Shown here piece after piece: positions 7,045 through 40,798 of a DNA stretch of 64,000 nucleotides. Below the pieces are notes generated by a model. The model ran no database searches. It had not been told where the DNA came from and was given only the letters and a program-made list of their open reading frames with translations. How positions within the stretch are numbered: the stretch's first letter is position 1; the number at the start of each line of letters is the position of its first letter. The position numbers were made by a program, and so were the translations under genes. The stretch is from Gemmatimonadota bacterium (GTDB lineage: Bacteria > Gemmatimonadota > Gemmatimonadetes > Gemmatimonadales > Gemmatimonadaceae). Where the stretch lies: the NCBI GenBank assembly GCA_040388625.1, contig JAZKBK010000003.1, positions 1-64,000 of the forward strand, given 5' to 3'.

Positions 7045-7909
7045 TTGCCTTGCCTCCAAAACGACCTTCGACGCGCAGGAACAACCACGTCAGCAGCGCC
7101 AGTATCGATAGTGAGATCAGGAACAGCAGATACCCTTCCGTGAGATGCATGAATCCCTCGCCGAGCTTGGGATCCACGAAGAAAACGAGGAATCCAGTCA
7201 TGAAGATTCTGATTCCGTTGACGAAGATCGCGAGGCCGACGGCAAACGCTACCATGAGGATTCTGCTCAGCGGGTATTTCAGGAACAGCGCGCCGACCAG
7301 AATTGCCATGCTGAGGAGCGCAGTGAGCGAGCGCAATCCGCTGCACGCCTCGCTCACGAACAACGTGTGACCTGGAAGGCGGATGACGTTGCCCGAGAGT
7401 AGCACCGGGATGTGCCGCCACGACAGCATCGCCGCGCCCATCTTTGCGGCGATCTCCTGGAGTGGCAGCGTCATCGACGCGATGATCGATTCCGGAAGTG
7501 GAATGGTCAGTGCGAAGAGAAGGAACGGAAGCCACCAGGCCAGGACCTGGCGCCAACCCGCAAACCAGAGCGTCAATCCGACGAGCGCCATGAACAGTGC
7601 AGCACGTGGAATCGTTTCGACGCCGGCAACGCGCCCGAAAAGGCTGGCGACCACGGCGACCAGGATGATGATCGCGCCGGCCCATCGCGCCGGCTGGGAG
7701 TCTGCGATGACGCCAGACTTCCATGCCAGCCAGACGGCGACAGGCGCGATCAGAATACCGTGCGCGGCGTCCGGGATCGTGAGCCACGCGACGATGAGAC
7801 CGTAAATGACAGGGGCAAAGCAGGCAAGGAACAATCCCGAAGTCACCCAGCCGAGCGGCGCACCCTTGATCCTCGTCCGGATTGCAGGAATGGTCAGGGC
7901 GATAGTCAC
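7037..7909 (-). CDS. xrt: Exosortase (integral-membrane transpeptidase-like)
   Basis: A 290-residue multi-pass membrane protein of the exosortase/archaeosortase family, which processes C-terminal sorting signals such as PEP-CTERM. All three expected catalytic residues are visible: Cys189 in SEACSGLRSL, Arg234 in NGIRIFMTG and His255 in GFMHLTEGYLLF. The N-terminal DAAHG motif near residue 50 also fits the family. It is followed by epsI with an 8-base overlap. No protein in this window carries an obvious PEP-CTERM tail, so its substrates are probably encoded elsewhere. The subfamily cannot be assigned with certainty. Confidence 0.92.
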   Translation of the reverse strand: MTIALTIPAIRTRIKGAPLGWVTSGLFLACFAPVIYGLIVAWLTIPDAAHGILIAPVAVWLAWKSGVIADSQPARWAGAIIILVAVVASLFGRVAGVETIPRAALFMALVGLTLWFAGWRQVLAWWLPFLLFALTIPLPESIIASMTLPLQEIAAKMGAAMLSWRHIPVLLSGNVIRLPGHTLFVSEACSGLRSLTALLSMAILVGALFLKYPLSRILMVAFAVGLAIFVNGIRIFMTGFLVFFVDPKLGEGFMHLTEGYLLFLISLSILALLTWLFLRVEGRFGGKANA

Positions 7910-12402: not shown

Positions 12403-13319
12403 GCGCCATTCGCGGCGGCGTCAAACGCGTCGTCGAGACTGCGCTGGTTTTTGGCGGCGGCGCGTCGTTCTCGCGCCGTGCACACTCCGAGCACTTGCTC
12501 GTACTGGCCTATCACAACGTCGTCCCATCCGGAATGGACGTCGTTGGCGATCGGTCGCTGCACTTGCGCCAATCGGCGTTCGCCGCGCAGCTCGACGCGC
12601 TGGTCCGCACCCACGACGTGATACCGCTCGCCGCAGCGATGTCCGACATACCGGTACGGCAGTCACGTCCTCTCGCAGCAATCACGTTCGACGACGCGTA
12701 CTCGGGCGCAATCTCTGCCGGCGTCGCGGAGTTGCGTGCGCGAAACCTGCCGGCGACGGTGTTCATCACGCCGTCATTCCTCGATGGCCGGTCATTCTGG
12801 TGGGACGTCCTTGCAGATCCGCGACTGGGACTCGATCCTCGGATTCGCGAGCGTGCACTGTCCGAAGGTCGCGGCCTGAATACGGAAGTTCTGGCAATGG
12901 CGGCGCGTTCGGGCATTCCCGCGCACGAGATGCCGCCGCATGCGCGCGGTGCATCGAACGAACAGCTGAGCGCAGCGCTGCAGTATGACAGGATCACCTT
13001 TGCAGCTCACACGTGGAGTCACCCGAACCTCGTTGCCCTCCCCGATGCAGAGCTCGCCGAGGAGCTGCAACGTACTCGCACCTGGCTCCAATGCTTCGGA
13101 GAACGGTCGCTTCCGATGGTGTCGTATCCGTACGGACTCGCGGACGGACGCGTGCAGAAGGCGGCGCGTGACGCTGGTTACACGGCGGCGTTCATGATCG
13201 AAGGGGGGTGGACCGTCGCTGCACCCAGCGACAGTTTCACCATACCGCGTCTCAATGTGCCGGCCGGCGTGTCCACCAACGGGTTCATACTTCGCGCCGC
13301 GGGTCTCATACACGGGTGA
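12399..13319 (+). CDS. Polysaccharide deacetylase (NodB-type)
   Basis: A 306-residue carbohydrate esterase family 4 protein. The NodB motifs are ITFDDAYSG (metal and base Asp pair) and HTWSHPNL (metal-binding His pair), followed by SYPYGLADGR. The early VLAYHNV motif is common in exopolysaccharide-associated deacetylases. No ATG is available near the domain start; TTG 12399 overlaps the preceding stop (TTGA) and is in frame. It is predicted to remove acetyl groups from N-acetylated sugars of the polymer. There is no clear signal peptide, so action may be cytoplasmic or on a lipid-linked intermediate. Confidence 0.85.
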   Translation: MSAIRGGVKRVVETALVFGGGASFSRRAHSEHLLVLAYHNVVPSGMDVVGDRSLHLRQSAFAAQLDALVRTHDVIPLAAAMSDIPVRQSRPLAAITFDDAYSGAISAGVAELRARNLPATVFITPSFLDGRSFWWDVLADPRLGLDPRIRERALSEGRGLNTEVLAMAARSGIPAHEMPPHARGASNEQLSAALQYDRITFAAHTWSHPNLVALPDAELAEELQRTRTWLQCFGERSLPMVSYPYGLADGRVQKAARDAGYTAAFMIEGGWTVAAPSDSFTIPRLNVPAGVSTNGFILRAAGLIHG

Positions 13320-14524
13320 CCGGGAACAATCAGCACCGCCGCACCATCCTGGTGACGGACGGCGAACAACGCGCGACACTTGCCGTGGTCCGGTCGCTCG
13401 GCGCCGCTGGCCACGTCGTTCACGTGTCCGCGTCGGCGCCGCGCTCACTCGCCGCGGCATCGCGCTTCGCTCGCACCGAACACGTCGTCCCGGATGCGCT
13501 CGTGGATCCACATCGCTTCGCCGACGAGATTCACACCATCGTCGCACGCAACGGCATCGACACCATCATTCCAATGACGGAGCCTGCACTTCTCGCAATC
13601 CTTCCGGCACGTGGGCGTTTCGACGGTGTGTTGATCCCTTTTGCGGACGCCGATACGTTCACCGGAATTTCCGACAAGCAGTCGGTACTCGCCGCCGCAA
13701 GTAGAGTCGGCATCGCCGTGCCAGCTCAGACCGTGATTGCCGATGCTCGAGATGTTGAATCTCTGGATATCTCATCGCTTCGCTATCCGCTCGTCGTCAA
13801 GCCGGCACGGTCTGTTTCGACGGGGTCGGACGATCGCCTCAAGCTGTCCGTGCAGCATGCGGCCTCGGCGACGGAACTGCGCGCGGAGCTCGACTGCATG
13901 GACGCGCGTGCCTACCCGCTTCTGCTGCAACAGCGAATCGTAGGTCCTGGCATTGGGATCTTCGTACTTGTCTGGAATGGTAAGCTCGTCGCGCAATTCG
14001 CTCACCGCAGGATTCGTGAGAAGCCGCCAGCTGGCGGTATCAGCGTGTATCGCGAGAGCGTCGCTGTCGATGCCGAGCTGCTGCGTATGTCTCTGGCACT
14101 TCTCGCCGAGTTTGCATGGCAGGGAGTGGCGATGGTCGAGTACAAGTTGGACGAGAGCACCGGCCAGCCATACCTCATGGAAATCAACGGTCGCTTCTGG
14201 GGCTCGTTGCAGCTTGCCATAGATTCGGGTGTGGATTTTCCAACCCTGCTGATTGCAGCGGCCACGGAGCAGCAGCCCGACCCGGTCAGTCAGTTTCGGA
14301 CTGGCGTGCGCTCGCGCTGGTTCTGGGGCGACGTGGATCATCTGCTCACTCGTCTGCGCAGATCGGATCGGCAGCTCTCGTTGCCGAGTGGCTCACCGTC
14401 ACGATGGGCAGCGGTAAAGGCATTTTTTACCCATCATCCCGGCGACGTCAGCGAGATCCGGCGCCGCGACGACATGCGTCCCTTCCTGCGCGAATCTGTC
14501 CAGTGGTTCCAGCAACTCCTGTGA
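13316..14524 (+). CDS. ATP-grasp ligase of the polysaccharide operon
   Basis: A 402-residue ATP-grasp protein resembling carbamoyl-phosphate synthase-like and D-Ala-D-Ala ligase-like enzymes. An N-terminal pre-ATP-grasp Rossmann half (TILVTDGEQRATLAVVRSLG) is followed by the ATP-binding strand YPLVVKPARS, the acidic metal site MVEYKLDE and LMEINGRFWGSLQLA. GTG 13316 overlaps the deacetylase stop (GTGA). Such ligases join a carboxylate to an amine or thiol, so an amide-linked decoration of the glycan is plausible but unproven. It is a paralogue of the ATP-grasp half of the protein at 37850-39724, sharing the NGRFWGSL signature. Confidence 0.8.
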   Translation: MTGNNQHRRTILVTDGEQRATLAVVRSLGAAGHVVHVSASAPRSLAAASRFARTEHVVPDALVDPHRFADEIHTIVARNGIDTIIPMTEPALLAILPARGRFDGVLIPFADADTFTGISDKQSVLAAASRVGIAVPAQTVIADARDVESLDISSLRYPLVVKPARSVSTGSDDRLKLSVQHAASATELRAELDCMDARAYPLLLQQRIVGPGIGIFVLVWNGKLVAQFAHRRIREKPPAGGISVYRESVAVDAELLRMSLALLAEFAWQGVAMVEYKLDESTGQPYLMEINGRFWGSLQLAIDSGVDFPTLLIAAATEQQPDPVSQFRTGVRSRWFWGDVDHLLTRLRRSDRQLSLPSGSPSRWAAVKAFFTHHPGDVSEIRRRDDMRPFLRESVQWFQQLL

Positions 14525-18302: not shown

Positions 18303-19202
18303 TCAGCAGGATCCGCGCTTGAACAGCATCACCGGCAGCGTCCGCGCCATGATCTTGAGATCCTCCAGTACCGACTGGCGTTCCAGATACTCCAGATCGA
18401 ACTCCACCTTCGCGCGTACGTCGTCGATCGAGGAATCGTAGGCCCGATTGATCTGCGCCCAGCCTGTAATGCCCGGCCGAGCCTGCTGCCTCAACGGATA
18501 CGATACGATGTTCTGCCGCAGCTCGGCAAAGATGCTCGGCCGCTCGGGACGCGGACCAACGATGTTCATGTCGCCGCGCACGACGTTGATCAGCTGCGGA
18601 AGCTCATCCAGACGCGTCTTCCGGAGGAACCGTCCGACCGGCGTGACGCGCGGATCCTCGCGCGTCGCCCATACCGCGCCGGTCACCTGCTCAGCATCCA
18701 CCCGCATCGAGCGGAACTTGATGATGCGGAACGCTCTGCCGCCAACATCGTTGCGGCGGCGGTCGAAGACGGCCGTCGCCGCGCGGCGCCGGCGATCCAT
18801 GCCGACGCGCGTCTGCACGTAGAATACGGGGCCAGCCGACGTGAGCTTGATCGCAAGCGCCACGAGCGCCATCACTGGCGCAAGCATTACCAGGGACGCC
18901 AGCGCAATCGTCACGTTCAATGCGCGATTGACCCACTCGGAGCGCTCGTTTGGTATGACGTGCAGGTGGGTTGCTGGTTGAGTGTCAACCGCCGCTATTG
19001 GAACTGTATCCGCAATACCCGTCGCCATGAGCCGGAAAAGCTGTTCCTCTCCCATGCCGGCGAGCGGAACTTCACGATCCGGCTCCGTGGATGTCAGGCG
19101 CGGTGCCCGAGAGACGATGCCCCGCGTCTTTGGATTTGCCGGGAAGTCCAGGACGGTCGAATCTGAATCCGGCCTATCGATGTCATGCGCGTTGAGTTCC
19201 AT
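18303..19202 (-). CDS. Initiating undecaprenyl-phosphate sugar phosphotransferase
   Basis: A 299-residue bacterial sugar transferase (WcaJ/PglC/EpsL superfamily) that transfers a sugar-1-phosphate to undecaprenyl phosphate, the first step of repeat-unit assembly. A single membrane hairpin (about residues 85-107) precedes the catalytic domain with [40 protein letters not shown] and [13 protein letters not shown] 19202 is preferred; the longer frame to 19334 would overlap the upstream wza-like gene. The N-terminal 80 residues are variable. It is the last gene of the minus-strand export block. Confidence 0.9.
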
Positions 19203-19258
19203 AAGCGATAATTCGCAGCGAAAAGGTGCTGACCAGAACTGACGATTACTAACGATGC

Positions 19259-19927
19259 TTAACGATGGCCCAAGTAGAATAGAAGTGTGGCCATCGACGC
19301 CGTAACTCCGACGACCTTGAAAATTGTGTCCCACGACGACGTTGGTTTCTGTCCGATAACCAGTGCATCGCCCGGCGCGACGTGCAACTGATCAAGAGTC
19401 ATTCCCGATGCCAGCGCTGAAGCGAGCTGTTCCTTCGGAATCACGTCAGTGTCTCCACGTTTGACAACCGAGCGATTGAGATCGGCTGTCCCGGTGGGCC
19501 CACCTGCCGACATCACAACTTGGCTGAGAAGCATGTCGCTCGGAACTGTGTAGAATCCCGGTTTGGTTACCTCTCCAAGTACCGCGATACGCACGAGAGC
19601 TGTTGCGTGAACGACTGGGTCCCGAATGAACTTGCCTATCTCCTGCGTCAGATACTTCTGTATGTCTGCTCGCTTCACGCCTGCCAGATGAACATCACCA
19701 AGGCCGGCCAGCGTCAGAATCAGTCCCTCTCTGACCGTGAGCGTATCTCTGATCCCCTGGACTCCCTGCGCACTCGGCTGCGGACTGTCAACCGTCAGCG
19801 CAATCCTGTCGCCAACGTGAAACTCATCCGCCTGAGACTCCTGCGCCTTCGCCGTAAACGGCAGCGCGACGCAGGCAAAAGCCGCAATCCCTATCAGTGC
19901 TCTGACACATCTCGAAACAGCAGTCAT
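19259..19927 (-). CDS. Polysaccharide export protein (Wza/SLBB-like)
   Basis: A 222-residue export protein. ATG 19927 is chosen for its GGGGGA ribosome-binding site and the following signal peptide ending around ALPFTAKAQ. The polysaccharide export domain (DEFHVGDRIALTVD...) is followed by an SLBB segment (VLGEVTKPGFYTVPSDMLLSQVVMSAGG) and a C-terminal hydrophobic stretch (residues about 200-218). No lipobox Cys is seen after the signal, unlike enterobacterial Wza, so anchoring may be by the C-terminal segment. A sigma-54-like promoter lies just upstream. Confidence 0.87.
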   Translation of the reverse strand: MTAVSRCVRALIGIAAFACVALPFTAKAQESQADEFHVGDRIALTVDSPQPSAQGVQGIRDTLTVREGLILTLAGLGDVHLAGVKRADIQKYLTQEIGKFIRDPVVHATALVRIAVLGEVTKPGFYTVPSDMLLSQVVMSAGGPTGTADLNRSVVKRGDTDVIPKEQLASALASGMTLDQLHVAPGDALVIGQKPTSSWDTIFKVVGVTASMATLLFYLGHR

Positions 19928-19946
19928 TCGGTAATCCCCCAATGTG

Positions 19947-19962
19947 AGCAGCGATTGTGCCA
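19947..19962 (-). promoter_or_regulatory. Candidate sigma-54 (-24/-12) promoter of the export gene
   Basis: The minus strand reads TGGCACAATCGCTGCT, agreeing with the consensus TGGCACG-N4-TTGCW at 10 of 12 defined positions with exact GG-N10-GC spacing. It points to the wza-like gene starting at 19927. The predicted transcription start (about 19936) falls within the apparent ribosome-binding site, so the leader would be very short; this counts against the assignment. An NtrC-type activator is encoded at 24206-25750. Confidence 0.45.
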
Positions 19963-20043
19963 GGCCCGAAGCCAGCGCCCAAACACTCCAAGTCCTTGCA
20001 AGACAACATTTTAACAAAACCGCACCGGCGACATCAAAACCGA

Positions 20044-20067
20044 TTCTGTTGCGTCTGTGCAACAGAA
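20044..20067. promoter_or_regulatory. Palindrome TTCTGTTGC-N6-GCAACAGAA
   Basis: A perfect 9-bp inverted repeat with a 6-nt spacer lies between the glycosyltransferase stop (20086) and the wza-like start. It is centred about 120 bases upstream of the predicted sigma-54 start site, a usual distance for activator binding. A related palindrome lies next to the activator gene at 24132-24149. It could alternatively be a terminator, but only a weak T-run (TCGGTTTTG on the minus strand) follows. Confidence 0.5.
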
Positions 20068-20085
20068 CGCGCATTCACATGATAT

Positions 20086-21520: not shown

Positions 21521-23965
21521 TTAGCTGGACTTCTCCCCAGCTCCAGGCAACGCCGCAACTTCGTCCTTGAGCACGTCGGCTTCGCTTTCGGCGTCCGGAC
21601 CGTATCCGTACAGGTAGGAATACTCCGAGTAAAGCTCTCCCGACGAAACGGCATTGACCACTGCGCCGAGTATGCGAACGGGCAGACGGTTCATCAACTT
21701 GAGCTTGGCCTTGGCCACCCGACGATCGGTATGGCCAGTACGCATCACGAGCATCAGGTTGCGCGTCGCAACGCTCAACGCGTAGGCATCCACACCGGCC
21801 GCTAGTGGTGCACTGTCGATGATTATCACGTCGAACCTGGAGCGAACCATGTTCAGCAGCGCCGGAAGACGAGCCGACGTGAGCAGTTCCGGCCCACGAT
21901 GTCTGCGCGTTCCCGAAGCGATGAGCGTGAGCGCGCCATGCACGGGCACCTCACGCATCACGTGCGCCGCGTCCACTTCGCCGGCGAGATAGTCCAGCAA
22001 TCCGGGACGCCGCTCGATTCCAAAGATCGAGTGCAGCTTGCCGCGTCTGATGTCGCCGTCGATGAGCAGTGTCTTGAAGCCCGCCTCCGCGAACGACAAA
22101 GCGAGGTTCGATGATATCATCGACTTGCCGTCACCCACGCCCGGACTCGAGACCGTCACCATCACGGGCGGCGAGTCGAACATGTGATGAAGGTTCATTC
22201 GCAAGCCACGGAACGCCTCTACGCTCTGCAGCACCGCATCCGGATCGTTGTCCCCCTCGCCCGGCTTCGGAACGGTCGGGATCGCGCCCATCATGTCGAG
22301 CCCGAGCTCGTCCGCGATCTGCTCAGGATAGCGGAAACGATGGTCGATCATATCGAACAGAAGCGCGATGATGATGCCGAGGCCCGCTGCCGCCAGGAAT
22401 CCACCGCCGACCAGCATCGCCTTGACGTTGCGCTGCGCACTCGCGGCGGGGAGTGCCGGGTCGAGGATCGACACGTCTGGCACGGTACTCTCCGCACCCA
22501 GTCGTGCGGTCTCGTAGCGATTTTCGACGTTGTTGTACAGCGCTTCCGCTGTCGTCTGATCGCGCCGAAGGCGCTGCTCCTCCGTAGTGCGCGCTGGAAT
22601 TCCCTCGAGCGCCGAGGAGTCGGCACGTACATCGGCCCCAATGCGTTTTTCCTGATCGCGCAGCAGATCCACCTGCGTCTGCATGAGATCGGGAATCGTC
22701 TGTGTCCGAAGAGTGTGCACCGCTGCCGCCATGTTCTTCACGGCGGGGAACGAATCCGTGTAGGACTGTCTCAATCCGCGAAGTTGCGTTTCCTTCTCGA
22801 CTAGATCCTTGAGTGCCGAGGTGAGCATGGGAGCTCCGGCAATCGCGGGCACGGCGGCGAGAACGTCGGGTGAGAAATTCCCCTGCCGGGCGGACGGGAT
22901 CAGGCTCTCGAGTGACTGGAGGCTGCGCTGAACGGTTTGGAGGTCGGTCTGACTCTTGAAGTATTGCGACGTCAGTGCGTCGGGCGGCGGGGCTATTCCG
23001 AGTGTCGATGCACTCGCGGAGACCGACGCTTCCGTGGGCTTGGTAATCGCGCGGGAACGGAATGCCTGAAGCGCATTCTCGGCGCTCCTCAGATTGTCCT
23101 GCGCCGAGCTGCGTTGTGCATCGAGGATGTCGGCTTGAGTCGCGAGACTGCGGGTGCGAAGCTCTGCGGCAGTTACGAGGAACTGCTGCATCCAGACGTT
23201 GAGGAGGTCGGCGGTCTGCCACTTGTCCGCGCCCGTGAGCGTGAGCGTCAGGAAGTTGCTGTTCTCCTGCATGGCGACGTCCAGCCGCTGGATCAGCGCG
23301 ACGCCAACCGACCGTGGCTGAACCACGGTGAAGTGTACCGACTGATTTCCCTGCAGCGATGCGACTGTGGGGACCCAGGCGAAGCCGACGGATTTGCCGA
23401 CCGAGTCGCCCAGCCTGCCGTGCTCGAAGATTCCTCGCTGGGCCTCGGCGAGCGAATACGTACCCTTGGTCGAATCGGACCACAATGTGTAGTCGCCCGG
23501 TACGGTGCGCTGTCCCGGCTGGATTCCAGCCAGAGCAACCGAATCGCGCCAGGTCTTTCCCTTGACCCAGAGACGTTGGTGGGCAACCACCTTGTCGACG
23601 ACTGCGAAGCTGCGGATCAGCTGGACCCAGGAGCCGTTGGGCAGGAGCTCGGGCGGCCGGTAGGCGCCGCCGTTGTTGGTACCGACGTCAGCGATCCACA
23701 GGGCTCCGCGAGCCTCGAAAACGGGTTCTATGAAGCGGGTTGCGATTACTCCGGCGGTGGTGCCAAGTGCCGCGAGAATTATGATGAGCCAGCGGAAACG
23801 TTTGATTGCCGCCCAGTAGCGACGGAGTTTTGCGCCCCCTCCACCGGCCTCTTCGTCCTCAGCGATCGGCTGGGGGGTGAGATCGAGTGGAGCTATGTCG
23901 GTCGTACCCGGAAGGGCTGGTGCCGCATCCCGGAAAGAGCCCGCGGGCACAATTGAGTTTTTCAT
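21521..23965 (-). CDS. Polysaccharide co-polymerase/BY-type tyrosine kinase (Wzc-like)
   Basis: The 814-residue protein controls chain length and export of Wzy-dependent polymers. The N-terminal Wzz domain has a first membrane helix (FRWLIIILAALGTTAGVIATRF) and a long periplasmic coiled-coil region. A second helix (MLVGGGFLAAAGLGIIIALLFDMIDH) leads to the cytoplasmic kinase with Walker A SSPGVGDGKSMISSN (near residue 608), Walker A' LLIDGDIRRGKLHSIFG and Walker B DVIIIDSAPL. The Tyr cluster LYSEYSYLYGYG (about residue 780) is the expected autophosphorylation tail. ATG 23965 is chosen as the start nearest the conserved region. A candidate partner phosphatase is fused to an ATP-grasp domain at 37850-39724. 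Confidence 0.93.
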   Translation of the reverse strand: MKNSIVPAGSFRDAAPALPGTTDIAPLDLTPQPIAEDEEAGGGGAKLRRYWAAIKRFRWLIIILAALGTTAGVIATRFIEPVFEARGALWIADVGTNNGGAYRPPELLPNGSWVQLIRSFAVVDKVVAHQRLWVKGKTWRDSVALAGIQPGQRTVPGDYTLWSDSTKGTYSLAEAQRGIFEHGRLGDSVGKSVGFAWVPTVASLQGNQSVHFTVVQPRSVGVALIQRLDVAMQENSNFLTLTLTGADKWQTADLLNVWMQQFLVTAAELRTRSLATQADILDAQRSSAQDNLRSAENALQAFRSRAITKPTEASVSASASTLGIAPPPDALTSQYFKSQTDLQTVQRSLQSLESLIPSARQGNFSPDVLAAVPAIAGAPMLTSALKDLVEKETQLRGLRQSYTDSFPAVKNMAAAVHTLRTQTIPDLMQTQVDLLRDQEKRIGADVRADSSALEGIPARTTEEQRLRRDQTTAEALYNNVENRYETARLGAESTVPDVSILDPALPAASAQRNVKAMLVGGGFLAAAGLGIIIALLFDMIDHRFRYPEQIADELGLDMMGAIPTVPKPGEGDNDPDAVLQSVEAFRGLRMNLHHMFDSPPVMVTVSSPGVGDGKSMISSNLALSFAEAGFKTLLIDGDIRRGKLHSIFGIERRPGLLDYLAGEVDAAHVMREVPVHGALTLIASGTRRHRGPELLTSARLPALLNMVRSRFDVIIIDSAPLAAGVDAYALSVATRNLMLVMRTGHTDRRVAKAKLKLMNRLPVRILGAVVNAVSSGELYSEYSYLYGYGPDAESEADVLKDEVAALPGAGEKSS

Positions 23966-24131
23966 GTCCAGTGCCGAAAGATAGAGGTAGTTACGTGGCC
24001 GGAACAGCGTTGCGGCAACGCAACGGTACACGGACCTGGATACAGTATCGGCAGCGGGGCTTTCGCTATTAGAGACGAAATATCCCTTGTGCCGCCCAGC
24101 CGGAGAGACATATTTGCAGGTGCGCACAGTT

Positions 24132-24149
24132 TGTAGCATTCATGCAACA
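24132..24149. promoter_or_regulatory. Palindrome TGTAGC-N6-GCAACA
   Basis: This inverted repeat shares the TGTNGC-N6-GCAACA layout of the element at 20044-20067. It sits between the divergent BY-kinase gene (start 23965) and the sigma-54 activator gene (start 24206), so it could serve autoregulation and activation. I found no convincing -24/-12 sequence between it and either start. Confidence 0.4.
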
Positions 24150-26035: not shown

Positions 26036-26884
26036 ATGCTCGCAGCTTTAAGGAACGCGACGACAGAGGTCTGGGACCACAGAGACCTTCTCGAGCAGTT
26101 GGCACTCCGCGACATCAAGCTTCGCTACAAACAGGCCGCGATGGGCTTCATGTGGGCGGTGTTCATGCCATGCCTGATCGTCCTCTCCGGACTCATCATC
26201 AGGTATGCGATGGCGCGGATCGCAGGACAGACGCTCGTACGCACAGACATTGCAAACATCGCTGTCAAGGGTGTCGGATGGGCATTCTTCGTTGGCGCGC
26301 TTGGCTTTGCCACGTCGAGCCTCATCGGCAACGCAAATCTCGTAACCAAGATCTATTTCCCGCGCGAAGTTTTGCCACTCTCCGCTGTGATCGCGCAGAG
26401 CTTCGACACCGGCATCGGCTTGGTGACGCTCTGCGTCATTCTTCCATTTCTCGGCGTTACGCTGCACCCCAGCATGCTGTGGGTGCCGATATTACTCGCG
26501 CTGCTAGTGTTGTTCACCACGGCGGCATCACTTTTCTTGAGCTGCGCGAATCTATTCTTTCGTGATGTCAAATACATCGTGCAGATCGTGCTGATGTTCG
26601 GAATATTCTTCACACCTGTGTTCTTCGAACCGTTCATGCTTGGCGCGCGCGGCGCTCATCTTGCGATGCTCAATCCACTGACGGGGATACTGGAAGGATT
26701 GCGGCTGAGCATTGTCTCCGGTCACAACCTGGTGCACCCGTTATCAACGCTCGTGCACGGCGCTGTGACGCCGGTCTGGGAACCGTGGGAACTCGCCTAC
26801 TCCGCGGTGTGGGCAGGTGCTGGGACCGTCGGCGCGACCGTAATGTTCCGGCGGCTTCAGCCGTTGTTCGCCGAGTATATCTAA
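26036..26884 (+). CDS. wzm: Polysaccharide ABC transporter permease (Wzm/TagG-like)
   Basis: A 282-residue ABC-2 type permease with about six membrane helices. The N-terminal amphipathic region DLLEQLALRDIKLRYKQAA is followed by MGFMWAVFMPCLIVLSGL, the usual entry into the first membrane helix of this family. The gene ends six bases before the ATPase gene, with which it forms an exporter for a lipid-linked polysaccharide. It is independent of the Wzx/Wzy-type machinery in the same locus. Confidence 0.9.
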   Translation: MLAALRNATTEVWDHRDLLEQLALRDIKLRYKQAAMGFMWAVFMPCLIVLSGLIIRYAMARIAGQTLVRTDIANIAVKGVGWAFFVGALGFATSSLIGNANLVTKIYFPREVLPLSAVIAQSFDTGIGLVTLCVILPFLGVTLHPSMLWVPILLALLVLFTTAASLFLSCANLFFRDVKYIVQIVLMFGIFFTPVFFEPFMLGARGAHLAMLNPLTGILEGLRLSIVSGHNLVHPLSTLVHGAVTPVWEPWELAYSAVWAGAGTVGATVMFRRLQPLFAEYI

Positions 26885-26890
26885 GACCTG

Positions 26891-28147
26891 ATGACAGATA
26901 CATCGGTCGAAATCGACGCAATCTGGAAGAAGTTTCGTAAAGGCGAGCGTCAGGACAGCCTGCGCGACCTCATTCCCGCCGCGGTCAAACGCATGCTGCG
27001 CGGACCCGATCCATCAAGGGAGCTGCGCAGCGACGACTTCTGGGCGCTGCAGGACATTTCCTTCTCGGTGGAGCGTGGCGCGGCGCTCGGCATCATCGGC
27101 CATAACGGCGCAGGGAAGTCGACACTACTCAAGATTCTTACCAGGCTGCTGACTCCAACCCGCGGGACGTACGTCACGCATGGGCGTATCGGCGCACTCA
27201 TCGAAGTCACGGCGGGATTTCACCAGGACCTCACCGGACGCGAGAATATTTTTCTGAACGGTGCGATCATTGGCCTGCGCAAGGCAGATATAGCCAGGCG
27301 CTTCGATGCGATTGTTGAATTCTCGGGCATCGGAGAGTTCATTGACACACCTGTTAAGCGCTACAGCTCCGGAATGAACGCGCGCCTCGGCTTTTCCATT
27401 GCGGCGCATCTGGATCCGGAGATCCTGATTGTCGACGAGGTGCTTTCGGTGGGAGACTTTACGTTCCAGGGGAAGTGCGTAAAGTGGATGCAGGACACAC
27501 TCAAGAAGGGAACGACGGTCGTTTTCGTATCGCACAACATGGATGCAGTGCTTTCGCTGTGCAACACGGCTGTACTGCTGAACCACGGAAGGATGGTTGC
27601 GCATGGGAACACCCCGGACGTCATCTCCGCATACTATGGTAGCGGGGGCGGCTACTTCACCGGCCGACGCGATGACGTTCGCGCGCACACTGCGGCGTTT
27701 GCTTCTAGTCACGACGAGACCGGAGTAGTCAAACCTGGAGAGCGCGTGGTTTACGCGCACAAGTTCACTGCGGATCGCGATTGCGCTCTGTCACCTGGTT
27801 TGCAGATTCGACGGGACAGGCGCGTAGTGATGCAGAGCACGTACGGCAGAATGCACGGCGCACCGATGCGTTTGTCTGCTGGCGAAACAGTGACCATTGA
27901 GTGGGCCCTCTCAATGAACTTTCCGGCTGGCGCCTACCAAGTCAGTCACTATTTGGAAGACGCAGAGGGTGGCTATCATGACTATTCCGACGGTGCACGG
28001 ACGGTGATAGTTGCGGATGATCCGCGCGTTGTTGGGGGATATTACGTCGATCTCGAAGTGGCACAGAGTGTCACGATGACCGGCAACAGCACCGACAAAC
28101 CTGTGCTTGCCACTGTCACGCGCTCCGGAAGCGAATCGGGATGTTGA
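26891..28147 (+). CDS. wzt: Polysaccharide ABC transporter ATPase with Wzt-type C-terminal domain
   Basis: A 418-residue ATPase. The nucleotide-binding domain has Walker A GHNGAGKST (about residue 72), signature YSSGMNARLGF, Walker B ILIVDEVLSVGD and H-loop VSHNMD. Residues from about 265 onward form an additional beta-rich domain typical of Wzt proteins that recognise the non-reducing end of their polymer. The 3' end overlaps the convergent glycosyltransferase gene by 32 bases. It energises export of a finished glycan across the inner membrane. Confidence 0.9.
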   Translation: MTDTSVEIDAIWKKFRKGERQDSLRDLIPAAVKRMLRGPDPSRELRSDDFWALQDISFSVERGAALGIIGHNGAGKSTLLKILTRLLTPTRGTYVTHGRIGALIEVTAGFHQDLTGRENIFLNGAIIGLRKADIARRFDAIVEFSGIGEFIDTPVKRYSSGMNARLGFSIAAHLDPEILIVDEVLSVGDFTFQGKCVKWMQDTLKKGTTVVFVSHNMDAVLSLCNTAVLLNHGRMVAHGNTPDVISAYYGSGGGYFTGRRDDVRAHTAAFASSHDETGVVKPGERVVYAHKFTADRDCALSPGLQIRRDRRVVMQSTYGRMHGAPMRLSAGETVTIEWALSMNFPAGAYQVSHYLEDAEGGYHDYSDGARTVIVADDPRVVGGYYVDLEVAQSVTMTGNSTDKPVLATVTRSGSESGC

Positions 28148-32404: not shown

Positions 32405-33943
32405 TTAGAAAGCACTACGCACGGTTCGCCTAATAGCAGCAATGCGGTTCGGGAACAGCGCCAGCAGAATGGCTGAATAAACGACCGCGCCAACTCCGGC
32501 CTGGATGAACAACCTTAGCAGCGCTGGATGCGCTGGCGAGATCAGGCGACCCGTTGCGAACACGACGACAGCCATACCTATGGTGGCAATGGTTGCGCCG
32601 CGAAGCGCACGCCAGTACTTCCCCCAACTCGTCACAACTTTGCAGGCGACGTACAGCAGCGGGATGCACGACAGAGGATACAACACTACCCACGCACCCG
32701 CTATCCCCGCGGTACCGGCATAGCGCGATCCAGCAAGAAATGCGATTGGAAATATGATCGCTGAAACAACGCCATGGTACATGAGGAAGCGCGTCTTCCC
32801 GCGCACAAGTAACGCACTCGGGATTACGGGCATTACGGAGCGGAGCGCCGTATAGATCGCGAGAAGTTGCAGCGGAACGATCGCGCCGGCCCACTTTTCT
32901 CCGAAGACGCCATGGATCAGATCTTTACTGACCAAACCGATCCCAATTGCGATGGGAAACGCGAGAATTGCGATCCCCTCGGTAATTGAGAGCACGTGGC
33001 GCTCCAGTGCCGCATCATCGTCTTGCACCGACGCGAATACGGTTGGAGTCACATTCGAAACAAGACTGGTGAGCTTCTCAACCGGAAGATTCGTCAGCGT
33101 CCACGCGAAGTCATAGGCACCGAGCGCCGCTTGCCCGAGAACACGTCCAGCCACGAGGAAGTCAGCGTTCGAGTAAATGAACCAGGATATGCGGCCAACC
33201 AGCACTTGCCGGCTGAACGTTATGGCACGCTCGATTGCCGCGAGGTGCGGAATCGCAAACCGCCGTGGCGACTTCACAATCGTGAATGCCATCGCAACAG
33301 CTACGCCGCACACTTCGCTCAAAACGAGCGCCCAATAGTGGAATCCTGCCATTGCGAGAGCGACTGCCAGGCCTGCCCCGAAAACGGCGCGCGTCGCGTC
33401 GATTGTCGCCAACGTGCGAAACCGAAAGTCACGTTGCAGGATGGCGTTCGGAACGGACTTGCACGCACCAAGAATGAAGGAGATACTGAGAGTGAGAACG
33501 ACTGGAACCAACGCTGGCGAATGGAAGAACGCCGCGAGAGGGCGGGCCGCCGCGAAAGACAGTCCGAAGATCGAGATCCCGACGAGCACTGAAACCGTGT
33601 TTAGTTGCGCGATCGCGTCATCCGTGAGATCGCGGAGAGTTATGATCGCGGATCCAATTCCGAACTCCGATACGAGCGCGACGAGCCCGAGGTATAGCGC
33701 CGCCATTCCAACAAGACCATAGTCGTTCGGCGTAAGCAATCGAGCCACAACGATAGTAGATCCCCAGCTAACGGCCTGTGTGAGCCACTTTGACGCAGCG
33801 CTCCAAGCAATCCCGTGCATGAGCGCCCTGTCGGACGCACCCACAGCCTGCGGGTTCGCCACAACTGCCTGCCTCACGTCGTCCCCGGCCGGCTGGCGCA
33901 CGAAATCGGACCCCAGGCCCGAACCATCGCTGTCGAAATTCAC
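32405..33943 (-). CDS. Wzx-like polysaccharide flippase (MOP superfamily)
   Basis: A protein of up to 512 residues with about 12-14 membrane helices, related to the polysaccharide biosynthesis/flippase family (RfbX/Wzx/MurJ-like). Characteristic segments are SKWLTQAVSWGSTIVVARLLTP, NDYGLVGMAALYLG, the loop NAILQRDFRFRTL and GAYDFAWTLTNLPVEKL. It should flip undecaprenyl-linked repeat units to the periplasm for the Wzy-like protein at 11023-12402. GTG 33943 gives a polar 40-residue extension; ATG 33820 before the first helix is an equally plausible start. Confidence 0.88.
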   Translation of the reverse strand: MNFDSDGSGLGSDFVRQPAGDDVRQAVVANPQAVGASDRALMHGIAWSAASKWLTQAVSWGSTIVVARLLTPNDYGLVGMAALYLGLVALVSEFGIGSAIITLRDLTDDAIAQLNTVSVLVGISIFGLSFAAARPLAAFFHSPALVPVVLTLSISFILGACKSVPNAILQRDFRFRTLATIDATRAVFGAGLAVALAMAGFHYWALVLSEVCGVAVAMAFTIVKSPRRFAIPHLAAIERAITFSRQVLVGRISWFIYSNADFLVAGRVLGQAALGAYDFAWTLTNLPVEKLTSLVSNVTPTVFASVQDDDAALERHVLSITEGIAILAFPIAIGIGLVSKDLIHGVFGEKWAGAIVPLQLLAIYTALRSVMPVIPSALLVRGKTRFLMYHGVVSAIIFPIAFLAGSRYAGTAGIAGAWVVLYPLSCIPLLYVACKVVTSWGKYWRALRGATIATIGMAVVVFATGRLISPAHPALLRLFIQAGVGAVVYSAILLALFPNRIAAIRRTVRSAF

Positions 33944-35653: not shown

Positions 35654-36847
35654 ATGCTATTAGAGCTGAAGCAAATCGCCCGACGCCAGTTGGAGTACAT
35701 GACCCTGCCGCGAGCCGCCAAGGCAGAACGGCGTCATGACGCTCGCGGCCTCTCGGGCAGGGACCCGGGAATTGAAGCGGTCGAGACAGCCGTGCTGGGC
35801 TGGCTCGGGGACGCACAGGACTTCTCAGCATCTCGTGACGGCGGCGCAGCAAGGGATTTCAATCTCATAAAGGGCTGGGCCCCGTCGTACCCGGAAACGT
35901 CTGGTTACATCGTTCCAACACTGATCGATTCCGGCCTCAGGCGCAATGATCCGGTACTGATCGATCGGGCGAGGCGAATGATTGACTGGCTGGTCGGCAT
36001 TCAGTTCGCCGAGGGCGGCTTCCAGGGCGGCACGATTGGAGCCGAGCCGCGCGTGCCGGTCACCTTCAATACAGGGCAAATCTTGATGGGGCTGGCAGCA
36101 GCCAGCATCCAGTTCGGCGACCGGTACGTGGAGCCGATGCACCGAGCGGCTGGCTGGCTCGTAGATACGATGGACCCCGACGGTTGCTGGCGCAGATTTC
36201 CCACGCCGTTCGCCGCGCCCGGCGAGAAGGCGTACGAAACGCACGTCGCGTGGGGATTGATCGAGGCCGCACGGGCAAGCGAGGGAGCCGGCCGTTCACG
36301 CGAGTACGCTGAGGCAGCGCTGCGCAACGCCCGCTGGGCCATCACAAAACAGCTCCCGAATGGTTGGTTTGAAAGTTGCTGTCTCTCGAACCCCGATGCG
36401 CCTCTTACACATACGATTGGGTATGTCCTGCGCGGGATGACGGAGATCTTCCTGTACACTCGGGAGTCTGACGTCCTGGCGTCGGCATTACTCACCGCCG
36501 ACGCACTCAGCAGTCGCGTGCGAAGCGACGGATTTCTCGCCGGCCGGCTCGACCGCGCGTGGAACGGGGCCGTGGATTGGGTCTGCGTCACCGGTAGTGC
36601 GCAGATCGCCCATTCGCTGCTGCTCCTTTTCAAGGAGACCGGAAACCCGCGTTACCGCGATGCCGCCTTTGCGTTGCTCCGCTATGCACGCCGCACGGTT
36701 CACCTCGACGGTCCTTCCGGAGTGAGGGGCGGTGTCAAGGGATCATTCCCGGTCGATGGCGGATACGGGACTTACGAGTTCCTGAACTGGGGAGCGAAGT
36801 TCCTGATCGATGCGGACCACGCCGAGCGGCTCGTCAGGAGCGCATGA
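35654..36847 (+). CDS. Alpha-toroid protein of a polysaccharide locus
   Basis: A 397-residue helical-repeat protein. Repeating segments such as DWLVGIQFAEGGFQGG, GWLVDTMDPDGCWRRF and WAITKQLPNGWFESC resemble the (alpha/alpha)6 toroid seen in glycoside hydrolases, lyases and prenyltransferase/squalene-cyclase-like repeats. Similar genes in exopolysaccharide loci are often misnamed. No catalytic DxDD motif is visible, so a cyclase is unlikely; a glycan-cleaving or epimerising role is inference. The stop overlaps the next start (ATGA). There is no signal peptide, so action would be cytoplasmic. Confidence 0.65.
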   Translation: MLLELKQIARRQLEYMTLPRAAKAERRHDARGLSGRDPGIEAVETAVLGWLGDAQDFSASRDGGAARDFNLIKGWAPSYPETSGYIVPTLIDSGLRRNDPVLIDRARRMIDWLVGIQFAEGGFQGGTIGAEPRVPVTFNTGQILMGLAAASIQFGDRYVEPMHRAAGWLVDTMDPDGCWRRFPTPFAAPGEKAYETHVAWGLIEAARASEGAGRSREYAEAALRNARWAITKQLPNGWFESCCLSNPDAPLTHTIGYVLRGMTEIFLYTRESDVLASALLTADALSSRVRSDGFLAGRLDRAWNGAVDWVCVTGSAQIAHSLLLLFKETGNPRYRDAAFALLRYARRTVHLDGPSGVRGGVKGSFPVDGGYGTYEFLNWGAKFLIDADHAERLVRSA

Positions 36848-37872
36848 GCTTCAGCGTCATTGTCGACCCATCGGACAGCGACCTTGCGGACGTCGAGGTC
36901 GGCGCCCCGACCAATCCCTTCTGCTGCACGAGCTACGTTGCCGCGAGGCGCGCCCGGGGCGCGGCTGTCGTACTGTTCTCCACGTCTAATGCAGGGACGA
37001 AACCCGCCGCTGCAATCGGATACATGCGCGGACACGCGCTCAGTCGCACGCTCGAGATTACGTCCGCCCCGGAAGTAGCGCCGGATTGCAATTTCTGGGA
37101 TGGGGTTCTCGAGTTCTGCAAGCAACATCGCATCGCGGAAGTCGGGATCGACAGTTACGGATCCGCCTGTGTCGCGCTGCCGGCATGGAGTGCACAATCG
37201 ACGCTCCGCGATCGTACCGAATGGCTGCTGCAGCTCGCGGATGTCGGATCTCACGACCTGGCGTCGAACCATCGTCGCAACATCAACAAGGCACGAAAGC
37301 TCGGCGTCATCGCAACGCATACAACGGATCTATCCGCGACTGATGCGCACCTCAGTCTGATGCATGCCTCGATGCAGCGACGGTCCGCGCGCGGGGAATC
37401 GGTGCCCGTGCTGGCCGCGCATGATGCGGGCGACGATCGGGCGCTGCTGGCTTCCGGAGCGGCGCGACTCTACCAAGCCTCGTATGGCGGCAACGTGGTA
37501 TCGTCACTCATGGTGCTGGTGTGCGCGGGTGGCGCGTACTATCAATCGGCGGGTACTTCACCAGAAGGGATGGAAATCGGCGCATCCACATTCCTCATAT
37601 CCCAGGTCATCCGCGCTCTGGCAGAAGAGGGAAAGACGGTTTTCAATCTCGGCGGCGCCGGCCCGGAGAGCGAAGGGCTCAGACGATTCAAGGCAGGATT
37701 CGGAGCTCAGCCGGTGGCGCTTGCCGCGGGGGTTTATCAGATTGCGTCGCCGATGCACGAAAGGCTGAGGACCGCAATCAGACTGATACGCCGACCCAAC
37801 AGCCTCCGGACATCCATCGGGCGACGGTTGGCAGCGATGCTCATGGCTCTTACGGCTGGGAATCTTTCCTGA
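36844..37872 (+). CDS. FemAB/GNAT-like acyltransferase
   Basis: A 342-residue protein of the FemAB-like GNAT superfamily. A recognisable block is LASNHRRNINKARKLGVIA, the basic segment found before the acceptor site in this group. Later segments AAHDAGDDRALLASGAARLYQASYGG and VFNLGGAGPESEGLRRFKAGFGAQP match the conserved end of the domain. Members transfer aminoacyl or acyl groups to peptidoglycan or polysaccharide precursors. It is translationally coupled to the toroid gene and converges on the ATP-grasp/phosphatase gene with 23 bases of overlap. The substrate is unknown. Confidence 0.75.
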   Translation: MSFSVIVDPSDSDLADVEVGAPTNPFCCTSYVAARRARGAAVVLFSTSNAGTKPAAAIGYMRGHALSRTLEITSAPEVAPDCNFWDGVLEFCKQHRIAEVGIDSYGSACVALPAWSAQSTLRDRTEWLLQLADVGSHDLASNHRRNINKARKLGVIATHTTDLSATDAHLSLMHASMQRRSARGESVPVLAAHDAGDDRALLASGAARLYQASYGGNVVSSLMVLVCAGGAYYQSAGTSPEGMEIGASTFLISQVIRALAEEGKTVFNLGGAGPESEGLRRFKAGFGAQPVALAAGVYQIASPMHERLRTAIRLIRRPNSLRTSIGRRLAAMLMALTAGNLS

Positions 37873-39724
37873 CCGACTCACCACGACGCTCGACAAGAGC
37901 GCGGGCAAGCGCGGAAACGTAGCGCCTAACGACCCCGATCGTCGACGTGACCGCCGCCTGGCCCGTCATGTACGGATCAGCGATCTCATGCGGGCGATAG
38001 ACACCGGACGGAGTCATCCCGCCGAACAACATCACCTTCCCTCGTGACTCCGGAAAGCTCGCGACGATGTTCGCGAAGTTGAACTCGTCCATTGCAAATA
38101 TCACGTCGTTGGCCGCAATGAGCTGCGCGGTGAGCAGAGTCGCGCGATGCTCGTCGAGATCCACGCCCATCTCGCGTGCCGCATGCCTCACGCGTGGATC
38201 GGCCGCCTTGCCGTTGTGTGCGTGAGTACCGGCAGAGGATACGACAATGTCGGTTATTCCGGCGGCAGCCAGATCGTCGCGCAGGAACTGCGCTGCCGAC
38301 GCACTCCGCATGATGTTGCCATGACAGACGAAGATCACCGATCTGACTACGGGCGGAAGCGACACCTCGCGCTCGATGCCAGCGAGACGTGCCAGGCGAC
38401 GACGTACGTAAACGCCACGCCTGTCTCCCGGAAGTGTTCGCGCGGACTTTGCGATGGAAAGCGCCTGCCCTGGTACGACTGCGCGTATTGCTCCCTTGAT
38501 GATCTCGCGCGTCCATCCGGAAATGACACGCGTGTATTCCTGAACCGCCGGCGCCGGATCGCGCCAGGACCACATCGCCGATCGCGTACCGAACCGAAAA
38601 TCGGCAAAAAGCTGTCGCGTCGCAGCGGATACAGGGATGCGCTCGGCGTCGTCCGCAAATGCATGCGCAAATCGCTTGAGCGAACCCGCAGTCCAGCGAA
38701 CACGCAGACCGGAGCGATACGACGATGGTACGGTGGGCCCGATCCCCTGGGATAGCTGCCACGCATACAGCGGGAAATCCATACCAGCCGCGACCGCAAG
38801 CGGGAGCGATCCCCAGAAACGGCCATTCACTTCCATCAACGCCGTTTCGCCCGTCGCACGATCGTGGCGGTATTCGACCATCGCAACGCCGTCCCACTCC
38901 AGCGCCTTGAGAAGGCGAACGGAATGGTCGAGCAGCAATGGATCGACAGGCTCCGCCTCCGCAACAACCGCAACGCCGCCAGATGGTGGACATTCGGCCA
39001 GTCGCCGGTGCTGGAACGACGCGATGACCTCACCACGGGACATGAGAAGCTCGATCCCCACCCCCTGCCCTCCATGGTAGCTCTGGAACACGAGTCCTTC
39101 ACCGAAGCGCGGCTGGTCGGCAAACGCGGCGCGCAGCTCCGCGGCGCTGGTGAACGTGCGCGTCTTGAAGTTGTGGACCGTCGTCCGACTCTTGTCGCCA
39201 GGCTTCGCGATGATGGGAAAGCGCATCTGCGGGAGAGCGTCCTCCAACTCGGCTGCACTGCCGATACTCATCGAGATGGGGACGGGCACGCCGCACTGCG
39301 CTGCAACGGCCAGCGTGGCGGCTTTGTCGAGCACACGCTGGACGATGTTCGGCGACGGGCAGCCGACCGAACACAATGCTGACAGAGAGTCGTACGCAGC
39401 ACAGACGATGCACAACGACGAGTCGCTGGTCGGCACGACCCACGTCGCGTGCTCGGCCTCGACCAGCATGCGAAGGAGCTGCGCGGAATCGTCGACGCTC
39501 CCTCCCAGCTGCACGACGCCCGCGATGGCCCTGGACGTAACGTGCAGACTCTGGCCAGCCTGGACAGCGACGATCGATCGCACGCCGTGCCGGTGGAGCG
39601 ATCGCGCGATGGTGACTACCTTGCGCGGCTCCTCGCCGACGATGACAGCCGTCGGTGCATGCGTCTCGGTGCCGGTACGGGCGTCGCGTGGCGGAACGGC
39701 CTTGCGAGCGTCGTGACTACTCAC
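37850..39724 (-). CDS. Fused ATP-grasp ligase and low-molecular-weight tyrosine phosphatase
   Basis: A 624-residue two-domain protein. Residues about 25-345 form an ATP-grasp ligase with FPIIAKPGDKSR (about 169), metal site AMVEYRHD and LMEVNGRFWGSLPLA (about 297). Residues about 460-610 form a complete low-molecular-weight protein tyrosine phosphatase: P-loop VCHGNIMRSASAAQF gives C467-x5-R473-S474, and the general-acid motif is ADPYM (Asp583). Both catalytic residues of the phosphatase are present. The ATP-grasp half is a paralogue of the protein at 13316-14524. Wzc-like kinases such as that at 21521-23965 need such phosphatases, and no separate Wzb gene is seen here. Start is GTG 39724. 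Confidence 0.88.
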   Translation of the reverse strand: MSSHDARKAVPPRDARTGTETHAPTAVIVGEEPRKVVTIARSLHRHGVRSIVAVQAGQSLHVTSRAIAGVVQLGGSVDDSAQLLRMLVEAEHATWVVPTSDSSLCIVCAAYDSLSALCSVGCPSPNIVQRVLDKAATLAVAAQCGVPVPISMSIGSAAELEDALPQMRFPIIAKPGDKSRTTVHNFKTRTFTSAAELRAAFADQPRFGEGLVFQSYHGGQGVGIELLMSRGEVIASFQHRRLAECPPSGGVAVVAEAEPVDPLLLDHSVRLLKALEWDGVAMVEYRHDRATGETALMEVNGRFWGSLPLAVAAGMDFPLYAWQLSQGIGPTVPSSYRSGLRVRWTAGSLKRFAHAFADDAERIPVSAATRQLFADFRFGTRSAMWSWRDPAPAVQEYTRVISGWTREIIKGAIRAVVPGQALSIAKSARTLPGDRRGVYVRRRLARLAGIEREVSLPPVVRSVIFVCHGNIMRSASAAQFLRDDLAAAGITDIVVSSAGTHAHNGKAADPRVRHAAREMGVDLDEHRATLLTAQLIAANDVIFAMDEFNFANIVASFPESRGKVMLFGGMTPSGVYRPHEIADPYMTGQAAVTSTIGVVRRYVSALARALVERRGESVRKDSQP

Positions 39725-39799
39725 AATTATCGAGTGACGCGAGCGACACGTGACGCGTCAGAATGGTGTGCCGAAAGAGGAAGCATACATAGGGTCGAA

Positions 39800-40798
39800 A
39801 TGTATCGTGGGAGCCAGCATGGCGCTCCCGGAATGACGGGCCCGATCCGTCGCTGGTCGTTGAGTCCGAAGATGCTGCTCGCTGTGCTAGCCGAATCACA
39901 GCAGCAGGTCATCAAGGCGCGTGCGCGCAGGTTGCGGTCGCAACTGTTCAACCGGATATACGCCTACGACGCGACTCAACTGACGGCAGAGTTGCGACGC
40001 CTGGGAATTGGCGAAGGCGACGCGATCATGATGCAGTCATCGTTCGACAACCTCAACGGCTTTGTCGGAGAAGCCGCCGACGTGATCGACTGCGTGCTCG
40101 ACATCATCGGTCCGGCGGGGCATCTCTTCATGGTGTCGATGCCGTATGCCGGTGCCGCGCGGGACTACCTCCGCGATGCACAACCGTTCGACGTACGGCG
40201 AACGCCGTCGCACATGGGATTTCTCTCGGAGCTGTTTCGGCGCCGGAAGGGAGTCGTCCGCAGCGCCAATCCGATGCACCCGGTCCTGGCATGGGGGCCG
40301 CGCGCCGAATGGATTGTCGAAGGTCACGAGAACCTGACGTACTCCTGCGGCGAGAACTCGCCCTTCGAGAAGATGCTCGAGCTCGACACCAGCGCATTTC
40401 TGTTCGACGTCGATCTGGACGTACTGACGTTCGCGCATTATCTGGAGCATGTCTTCAGAGACAGCGCTCCGGCTCGCGTGTACTCGGACGAGCCAGTCGA
40501 AACGGAGATAATCGATCGAATCGGAACGCGCCGCCGGGTCGCAGTGCATCCCTTTGCGCCCGAAGCGATGAAGTTGCGGAATTTCGGTGTGTTGTACGAT
40601 GAGCTGCTTGCCCGGAACCGCGTGCACGAATCGCGAATTGGCAATACCGACTTGCGCCTGGTGAAACTCCGAGATGTACTGGCGTGTTGCAGCGACCTGG
40701 TGGCGCACGGCGGCCACATCTTCGCGCAGCCGGGCGAAGCGACGCACATCAAGCCGCGACGCGCGGGTAGAATCCGAAGTCTCTTTCGGCGACGCTGA
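39800..40798 (+). CDS. AAC(3)-fold N-acetyltransferase of a sugar locus
   Basis: A 332-residue protein of the aminoglycoside 3-N-acetyltransferase fold, with LRRLGIGEGDAIMMQSSFDNL, VDCVLDIIGPAGHLFMVSMPY and RSANPMHPVLAWGPRAEWI. GENSPFEKMLELDTSAFLFDVDLDVLTFAHYLEH is the family substrate region, and its His is retained. ATG 39800 has AGGG five bases upstream. Relatives in O-antigen and exopolysaccharide clusters acetylate amino sugars, so I do not read it as antibiotic resistance. It is divergent from the ATP-grasp/phosphatase gene. Confidence 0.83.
   Translation: MYRGSQHGAPGMTGPIRRWSLSPKMLLAVLAESQQQVIKARARRLRSQLFNRIYAYDATQLTAELRRLGIGEGDAIMMQSSFDNLNGFVGEAADVIDCVLDIIGPAGHLFMVSMPYAGAARDYLRDAQPFDVRRTPSHMGFLSELFRRRKGVVRSANPMHPVLAWGPRAEWIVEGHENLTYSCGENSPFEKMLELDTSAFLFDVDLDVLTFAHYLEHVFRDSAPARVYSDEPVETEIIDRIGTRRRVAVHPFAPEAMKLRNFGVLYDELLARNRVHESRIGNTDLRLVKLRDVLACCSDLVAHGGHIFAQPGEATHIKPRRAGRIRSLFRRR

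Follow-up and report, generated by a model that had tools for sequence, protein, structure and literature searches.

Wzc-dependent exopolysaccharide (EPS) loci encode low-molecular-weight protein tyrosine phosphatases (LMWPs) such as Wzb, AmsI and Etp, which have a C-x-G-N-I-x-R-S P-loop, with Ile four positions after the catalytic cysteine (C+4), and a DPY acid, and which occur together with a Tyr-tailed Wzc-type kinase. Most work on Wzb and Wzc leaves aside the enzymes that decorate the polymer, and the link between bacterial tyrosine phosphorylation and polymer chemistry is an open question. In the capsule of Campylobacter jejuni, glucuronic acid receives serinol-phosphate or ethanolamine-phosphate through the ATP-grasp domain of Cj1438 (Cj1438C), after which Cj1435 takes the phosphate off (PMC11800379). 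Other ATP-grasp proteins (Pfam ATPgrasp_Ter) are the PRK12767-type carbamoyl-phosphate-synthase-like proteins, the L-amino acid ligases and PylC. XrtA/PEP-CTERM EPS loci, which are common in flocculating and soil bacteria, contain an exosortase together with a response regulator, a FemAB-like GNAT, a deacetylase, an amidotransferase-type AsnB and an O-antigen-ligase-like protein.

We analysed 64,000 nucleotides (hereafter, the window) of contig JAZKBK010000003.1 from a soil-type bacterium of the Gemmatimonadota. As an XrtA/PEP-CTERM-type EPS locus, the window shares all these components with its class, but it also encodes an ATP-grasp ligase joined to an LMWP, a fusion that is not among the XrtA-associated families scoring in NCBIfam here. 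Both domains are of known families, and the fused architecture is real and conserved. We found no description of it in the open-access literature searched, in agreement with the initial annotation of this DNA, which did not know it as a described system; RefSeq names a Vibrio homologue only 'ATP-grasp domain-containing protein'. The fusion shares with Wzb, AmsI and Etp the P-loop, the acid, the Ile at C+4 and the setting, but its phosphatase is preceded by a ligase, lies 14 kb from the kinase gene and has Met in place of the second P-loop cysteine. Since it is neither stand-alone nor next to wzc, we regard it as Wzb-like in action at most and do not class it as a Wzb. Its ligase has the whole ATP-grasp fold and the metal-binding motif of the PRK12767-type proteins, L-amino acid ligases and PylC, but is at most 17% identical to the solved relatives and, unlike them, is joined to a phosphatase. 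The likeness to the C. jejuni system lies in the use of an ATP-grasp ligase plus a phosphatase in polysaccharide decoration (PMC11800379), whereas there a TupA-like ATP-grasp domain is fused to a GT2 glycosyltransferase, the phosphatase is a separate HAD enzyme and there is no LMWP. This fusion is a new candidate for a decoration enzyme of XrtA-type loci, one that may link modification of the sugar coat to the switch controlling coat assembly.

The exopolysaccharide locus and the neighbours of the fusion

Table 1. Features of the window, in order of position; residue numbers are those of the fused protein.
Feature	Positions	Strand	Remarks
Exosortase (EpsH family)	7079-7834	-	PF09721, E 7.6e-60; marks an XrtA/PEP-CTERM-type locus
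Unfused paralogous ATP-grasp ligase	13208-14524	+	flanked by a deacetylase and a glycosyltransferase
Polyprenyl glycosylphosphotransferase	18303-19334	-	
Polysaccharide export protein	19259-20074	-	
Wzc-type BY-kinase	21521-24139	-	872 aa, tail GELYSEYSYLYGYG; candidate phosphatase substrate
ABC-2 polysaccharide exporter pair (Wzm/Wzt-like, with Wzt_C)	26036-28147	+	
Wzx-type flippase	32405-33943		
(alpha/alpha) toroid protein	35654-36847	+	no Pfam family above cut-off; conserved partner
FemAB-like GNAT (Acetyltransf_6)	36844-37872	+	convergent with the fusion, 23-nt overlap
Fusion gene, ATP-grasp ligase + LMW protein tyrosine phosphatase	37850-39724	-	624 aa, GTG start
LMW-PTP domain	37892-38353	-	residues 458-611; Pfam, alignment
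Catalytic codon D583	37976-37978	-	
Catalytic codon R473	38306-38308	-	
Catalytic codon C467	38324-38326	-	
Helical linker	38354-38512	-	residues 405-457; AlphaFold model
ATP-grasp ligase domain	38513-39664	-	residues 21-404 (about); Pfam, structure comparison, alignment
ORF with aminoglycoside 3-N-acetyltransferase fold family (Antibiotic_NAT)	39449-40798	+	overlaps the 5' end of the fusion ORF

Besides the genes of Table 1, the locus contains a PrsR-like regulator, a Wzy-like (O-antigen-ligase-like) protein, a deacetylase and an amidotransferase-type AsnB. Several neighbours of the fusion are conserved with it. The nearest solved folds of the toroid protein are unsaturated glucuronyl hydrolase and AGE-type epimerases; the GNAT is a recurrent neighbour of fusions, and the trio of toroid protein, ligase and GNAT recurs in relatives and also, with the ligase unfused, in Nitrospira. 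Orthologues of the ABC-2 exporter pair adjoin the fusion in three relatives. The occurrence of this exporter and of a Wzx-type flippase in the same locus suggests two export routes or two polymers. The Antibiotic_NAT ORF at the 5' end of the fusion, which is conserved in one other locus (L034), probably has its true start downstream because the domain begins only near 40028.

The families that recur most often around the other fusions are sulfotransferases, glycosyltransferases, GNATs, flippases and deacetylases. Four Acidobacteriota carriers have a single NRPS module (C-A-T-TE) upstream, truncated in one case by the end of the contig and followed in two by a phosphopantetheinyl transferase. 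In these loci (L040, L041, L042 and L043) the NRPS, a Wzx flippase and sulfotransferases stand beside the fusion, and L043 additionally has an ATP sulfurylase-APS kinase; this looks like an undescribed sulfated, amino-acid-bearing EPS locus. A guess at the substrates of the adenylation domains, made from motifs read by eye (Thr-like in L041, Ser-like in L043, ambiguous in L040), was too weak to be used.

Integrity and active sites of the fused protein

The ORF reads through 624 codons without interruption. An AlphaFold model, made with 47 aligned relatives as input, has a mean pLDDT of 92.8 and a pTM of 0.81; residues 1-18 are disordered in it, and the true start may lie slightly downstream of the GTG. 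Pfam finds LMWPc at residues 463-606 (E 4.8e-24, with the entire profile covered) and ATPgrasp_Ter at residues 214-346 (E 7.8e-8, with a score over the gathering threshold). The linker between the domains is helical, predicted with high confidence, and similar to the N-terminal extension of stand-alone LMWPs in Gemmatimonadota EPS loci. Pfam, the model and the recurrence described below confirm the initial claim of an ATP-grasp ligase fused to a complete LMW tyrosine phosphatase. The possibility then raised of a sequencing or assembly error at the junction can be ruled out, and so can a frameshift or a chance join: more than 20 independent assemblies share the fusion with invariant catalytic residues.

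A whole ATP-grasp fold spans residues 21-404; its nearest structures on comparison are 2pn1 (Z 26.8, 2.5 A over 287 residues), the L-amino acid ligase 3vot (Z 26.2), PylC (Z 25.1) and PurK. Across 23 aligned fusions K134, K174, E284, E298 and N300 are kept, with K174, E284 and E298 invariant, and R302 is also conserved. From knowledge of the family, we take K134 and K174 to be the lysine pair and E284, E298 and N300 to be the Glu/Asn metal ligands.

The phosphatase half was compared by sequence only, the Foldseek/VIA search having listed mostly the ATP-grasp half; residues 459-604 match the solved LMW-PTPs AmsI (4d74, E 3e-14) and Wzb (2fek, E 3e-11). Both hallmarks of the LMWP fold (PF01451), the C-x5-R-[ST] loop, here CHGNIMRS, and the DP[YF] acid, are present, with C467, R473-S474 and D583-P584-Y585 where the initial annotation had placed them. 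C467, G469, N470, R473, S474, D583 and P584 are invariant in the 23 fusions; with the nucleophile, the arginine and the aspartate all unchanged, catalysis is therefore under selection and a degenerate phosphatase is ruled out. Met472 replaces the second P-loop cysteine (C-x4-C-R) of many LMW-PTPs, a residue that is common but dispensable for catalysis. The residue at C+4 is I471, and not the Thr or Ser of other LMWP classes, which places the domain among PTP-type enzymes. Replacing Thr by Ile at this position alters the arginine-phosphatase-type enzymes PtpB of S. aureus and YwlE of B. subtilis (PMC8001253); the role of the Thr has been shown for PtpB. The LMWP domain of the fusion is thus predicted, from its motifs, to be an active PTP-type phosphatase.

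Recurrence of the architecture and its origin

A scan with one genome per species, combined with a local two-profile check, answered the suggestion to search for this domain architecture: about 22 other sequences share it, from at least five phyla (Gemmatimonadota, Acidobacteriota, Nitrospirota, Planctomycetota, Pseudomonadota including Vibrio plasmids). Full-length matches are rare within the phylum itself (2 of 298 genomes). Three Vibrio alfacsensis plasmids encode a 593-aa homologue with the P-loop CYGNIIRS, and plasmid carriage in this species offers a route for the spread of the fusion between phyla. One of these plasmids (NZ_CP140104.1) bears an XrtA/PEP-CTERM EPS locus together with the fusion.

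The fused proteins form three separate groups in the ATP-grasp tree, interspersed with unfused ones. On a reduced tree, which leaves out one truncated row, four changes are required and the fused ligases cannot be placed in one clade (p-AU 1.1e-6); fusions or splits must therefore have been repeated. The ATP-grasp tree thus excludes a single origin, while the number of fusions is not fixed, as some changes may be splits. The LMWP tree likewise requires several changes. Having evolved more than once, the fusion gives a direct handle on a physical coupling of phosphotyrosine signalling to decoration, or on an LMWP turned biosynthetic phosphatase.

Unfused ligases are often found near an LMWP. 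Of the 60 unfused ligase domains in the loci collected, 32 share their locus with an LMWP and 14 have one within 600 bp, counts that are not an unbiased rate because some loci were collected through LMWP peptides. The two genes adjoin in Sphingobium, Massilia, Accumulibacter and gammaproteobacteria, and their arrangement may be divergent, convergent-overlapping (Sphingobium) or same-strand. Duganella has them one gene apart, in a row of deacetylase, LMWP, acyltransferase and ligase, and in one genome (G198) separate ligase and LMWP genes adjoin in the order of the fusion. Two Acidobacteriota loci have stand-alone PTP-type LMWPs (L042, 7185-7949, + strand; L151, 4159-4941, - strand) near a fusion or a second ATP-grasp gene; they are closely related to the fused domain, which suggests a recent fusion or split. 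A different LMWP fusion of the Gemmatimonadota, recognised by eye, places the same extended PTP-type LMWP behind a VanZ-like membrane protein (L125, G020:C62, 378-2288, - strand, 637 aa).

Kinases, co-occurrence and possible functions

The kinase of the window is the only Wzc-type kinase of the genome over the TIGR01007 cut-off, and the full tyrosine cluster attributed to it is borne out by five tail tyrosines (837, 840, 842, 844 and 846). The genome has two LMWPs, of which the fusion is the only one with Ile at C+4; the other, encoded outside the window, has the motif CTGNTCRSP and is of YwlE type, its Thr being the mark of YwlE/PtpB arginine phosphatases. No PHP-type CpsB/CapC phosphatase was found in the genome, and on both counts we discarded the idea of a backup enzyme. 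Hence, with a sole PTP-type LMWP, no CpsB/CapC and one Tyr-tailed kinase, the fusion is the prime candidate if anything resets Wzc in the usual way. Other Gemmatimonadaceae-type carriers have, besides the fusion, only Thr-type or ArsC-type LMWPs (CTGNT or CTGNS); no stand-alone PTP-type LMWP was found in any of them, a soft absence given that these MAGs are incomplete. Of the 22 further carrier genomes (or their like) examined, 11 have a kinase on the contig of the fusion, about 12-40 kb away, and most of these kinases have Tyr-rich tails. None is present on the contigs of three relatives (G298, G300 and G302; 36-58 kb, with the fusion of G302 near a contig end), or near the fusion on an 88-kb contig of G304 and a 1.2-Mb contig of G310.

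We then considered co-occurrence in 61 genomes of the family with a completeness of at least 95%, in which every strong LMWP match was read for its motif (five weak matches had no readable motif). A PTP-type LMWP is present in 9 of them (G000, G032, G241, G067, G129, G320, G010, G144 and G217); the remaining LMWPs are of YwlE and ArsC types only. The ATP-grasp family of the fusion occurs in 15 genomes, including 7 of these 9 (Fisher p 4e-4, or 0.004 when the two fusions are left out); roughly half of the genomes that have this family lack a PTP-type LMWP. A kinase above the cut-off is found in 49 genomes, 8 of the 9 with a PTP-type LMWP and 41 of the 52 others (p 0.67), so a co-occurrence of the PTP-type LMWP with the kinase was not detectable in this sample, where the test is low in power because kinases are near universal. 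A PTP-type LMWP is missing from 41 of the 49 kinase-positive genomes, so the kinase has no general need of one there. Relatedness among the genomes makes the p values smaller than they should be, to an unknown extent; even so, in these 61 genomes the PTP-type LMWP follows the ATP-grasp ligase better than the kinase.

The best-supported reading, which we hold tentatively and at just short of even confidence, is that of a bifunctional EPS decoration enzyme whose Wzb-like phosphatase acts on the assembly machinery, and in the first place on the Wzc-type kinase encoded in this locus. The ATP-grasp domain would decorate the repeat unit by joining an acceptor, through an amide or ester-like bond, to a carboxylate, most likely that of a uronic acid in the polymer, or that of an amino acid; amide formation on an EPS uronate is a prediction from context. 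The LMWP domain would take phosphotyrosine off the machinery, chiefly off the kinase, and the fusion would hold it at the site of ligation and assembly. We infer the catalytic activity, the substrates of both domains and any coupling between them. The conservation of both active sites over at least five phyla, the repeated fusion or splitting, the unfused neighbours and the Ile at C+4 are consistent with such an enzyme, while the Met in place of the second cysteine argues against it. As for the resetting of Wzc that the initial annotation proposed, the EPS setting, the presence of a sole PTP-type LMWP beside a sole Tyr-tailed kinase and the kinases found on the fusion contigs of about half of the carriers speak for it, but the LMWP tracks the ATP-grasp ligase and not the kinase, and some fusion contigs are kinase-free. 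These last points lend themselves to the main rival, unlikely in our view, by which Wzc is uninvolved and two steps yield one product: the ATP-grasp domain attaches a phosphorylated amine to one of the uronic acids in the polymer, and the phosphatase joined to it then dephosphorylates the product. The repeated fusion with the same partner, the uronate-enzyme-like fold of the toroid protein and the biochemical precedent in C. jejuni (PMC11800379) fit this scheme. However, the Ile at C+4 is typical of LMWPs acting on aryl phosphates, the Campylobacter phosphatase is an HAD enzyme, no gene for phospho-amine synthesis was recognised near the fusions, and in about half of its genomes the ATP-grasp family occurs without a PTP-type LMWP. 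That the enzyme is self-contained, first joining a building block that carries a phosphate to the polymer and then trimming this phosphate from the product with its LMWP, seems rather unlikely; if true, polysaccharide decoration would on several occasions have taken over the LMWP fold, a class known for protein phosphotyrosine.

It is quite improbable, and ranks third, that deletion of a stop codon merely joined two neighbours of an EPS operon whose domains work, uncoupled, as they do when separate. Stand-alone LMWPs with the same N-terminal extension do occur in EPS loci of relatives, G198 has the adjoining genes, and the fusion is rare in the phylum, but operon chance would predict less recurrence than is seen: several lineages share the partner and its order, and the separate genes adjoin in at least five different arrangements, convergent and divergent ones among them. 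We consider very improbable a regulatory or binding module, or an LMWP directed at another phosphoprotein such as a glycosyltransferase or the GNAT: the redox cysteine is indeed replaced by Met, but the catalytic P-loop is otherwise intact and its key residues do not vary among the fusions.

A separate Wzb gene next to Wzc in relatives, which the initial annotation named as evidence against a fused phosphatase serving the kinase, appears in a milder form in G320 and in none of the Gemmatimonadaceae-type carriers, whose MAGs are incomplete. G320 has no fusion, and its stand-alone PTP-type LMWP, with a linker-like extension, is one gene from Wzc and about 2 kb from the ATP-grasp gene. In this locus (L251, G320:C85) the kinase, the glycosylphosphotransferase, the LMWP (on the opposite strand), a Wzy-like gene and the ATP-grasp gene stand in a row, a possible pre-fusion arrangement.
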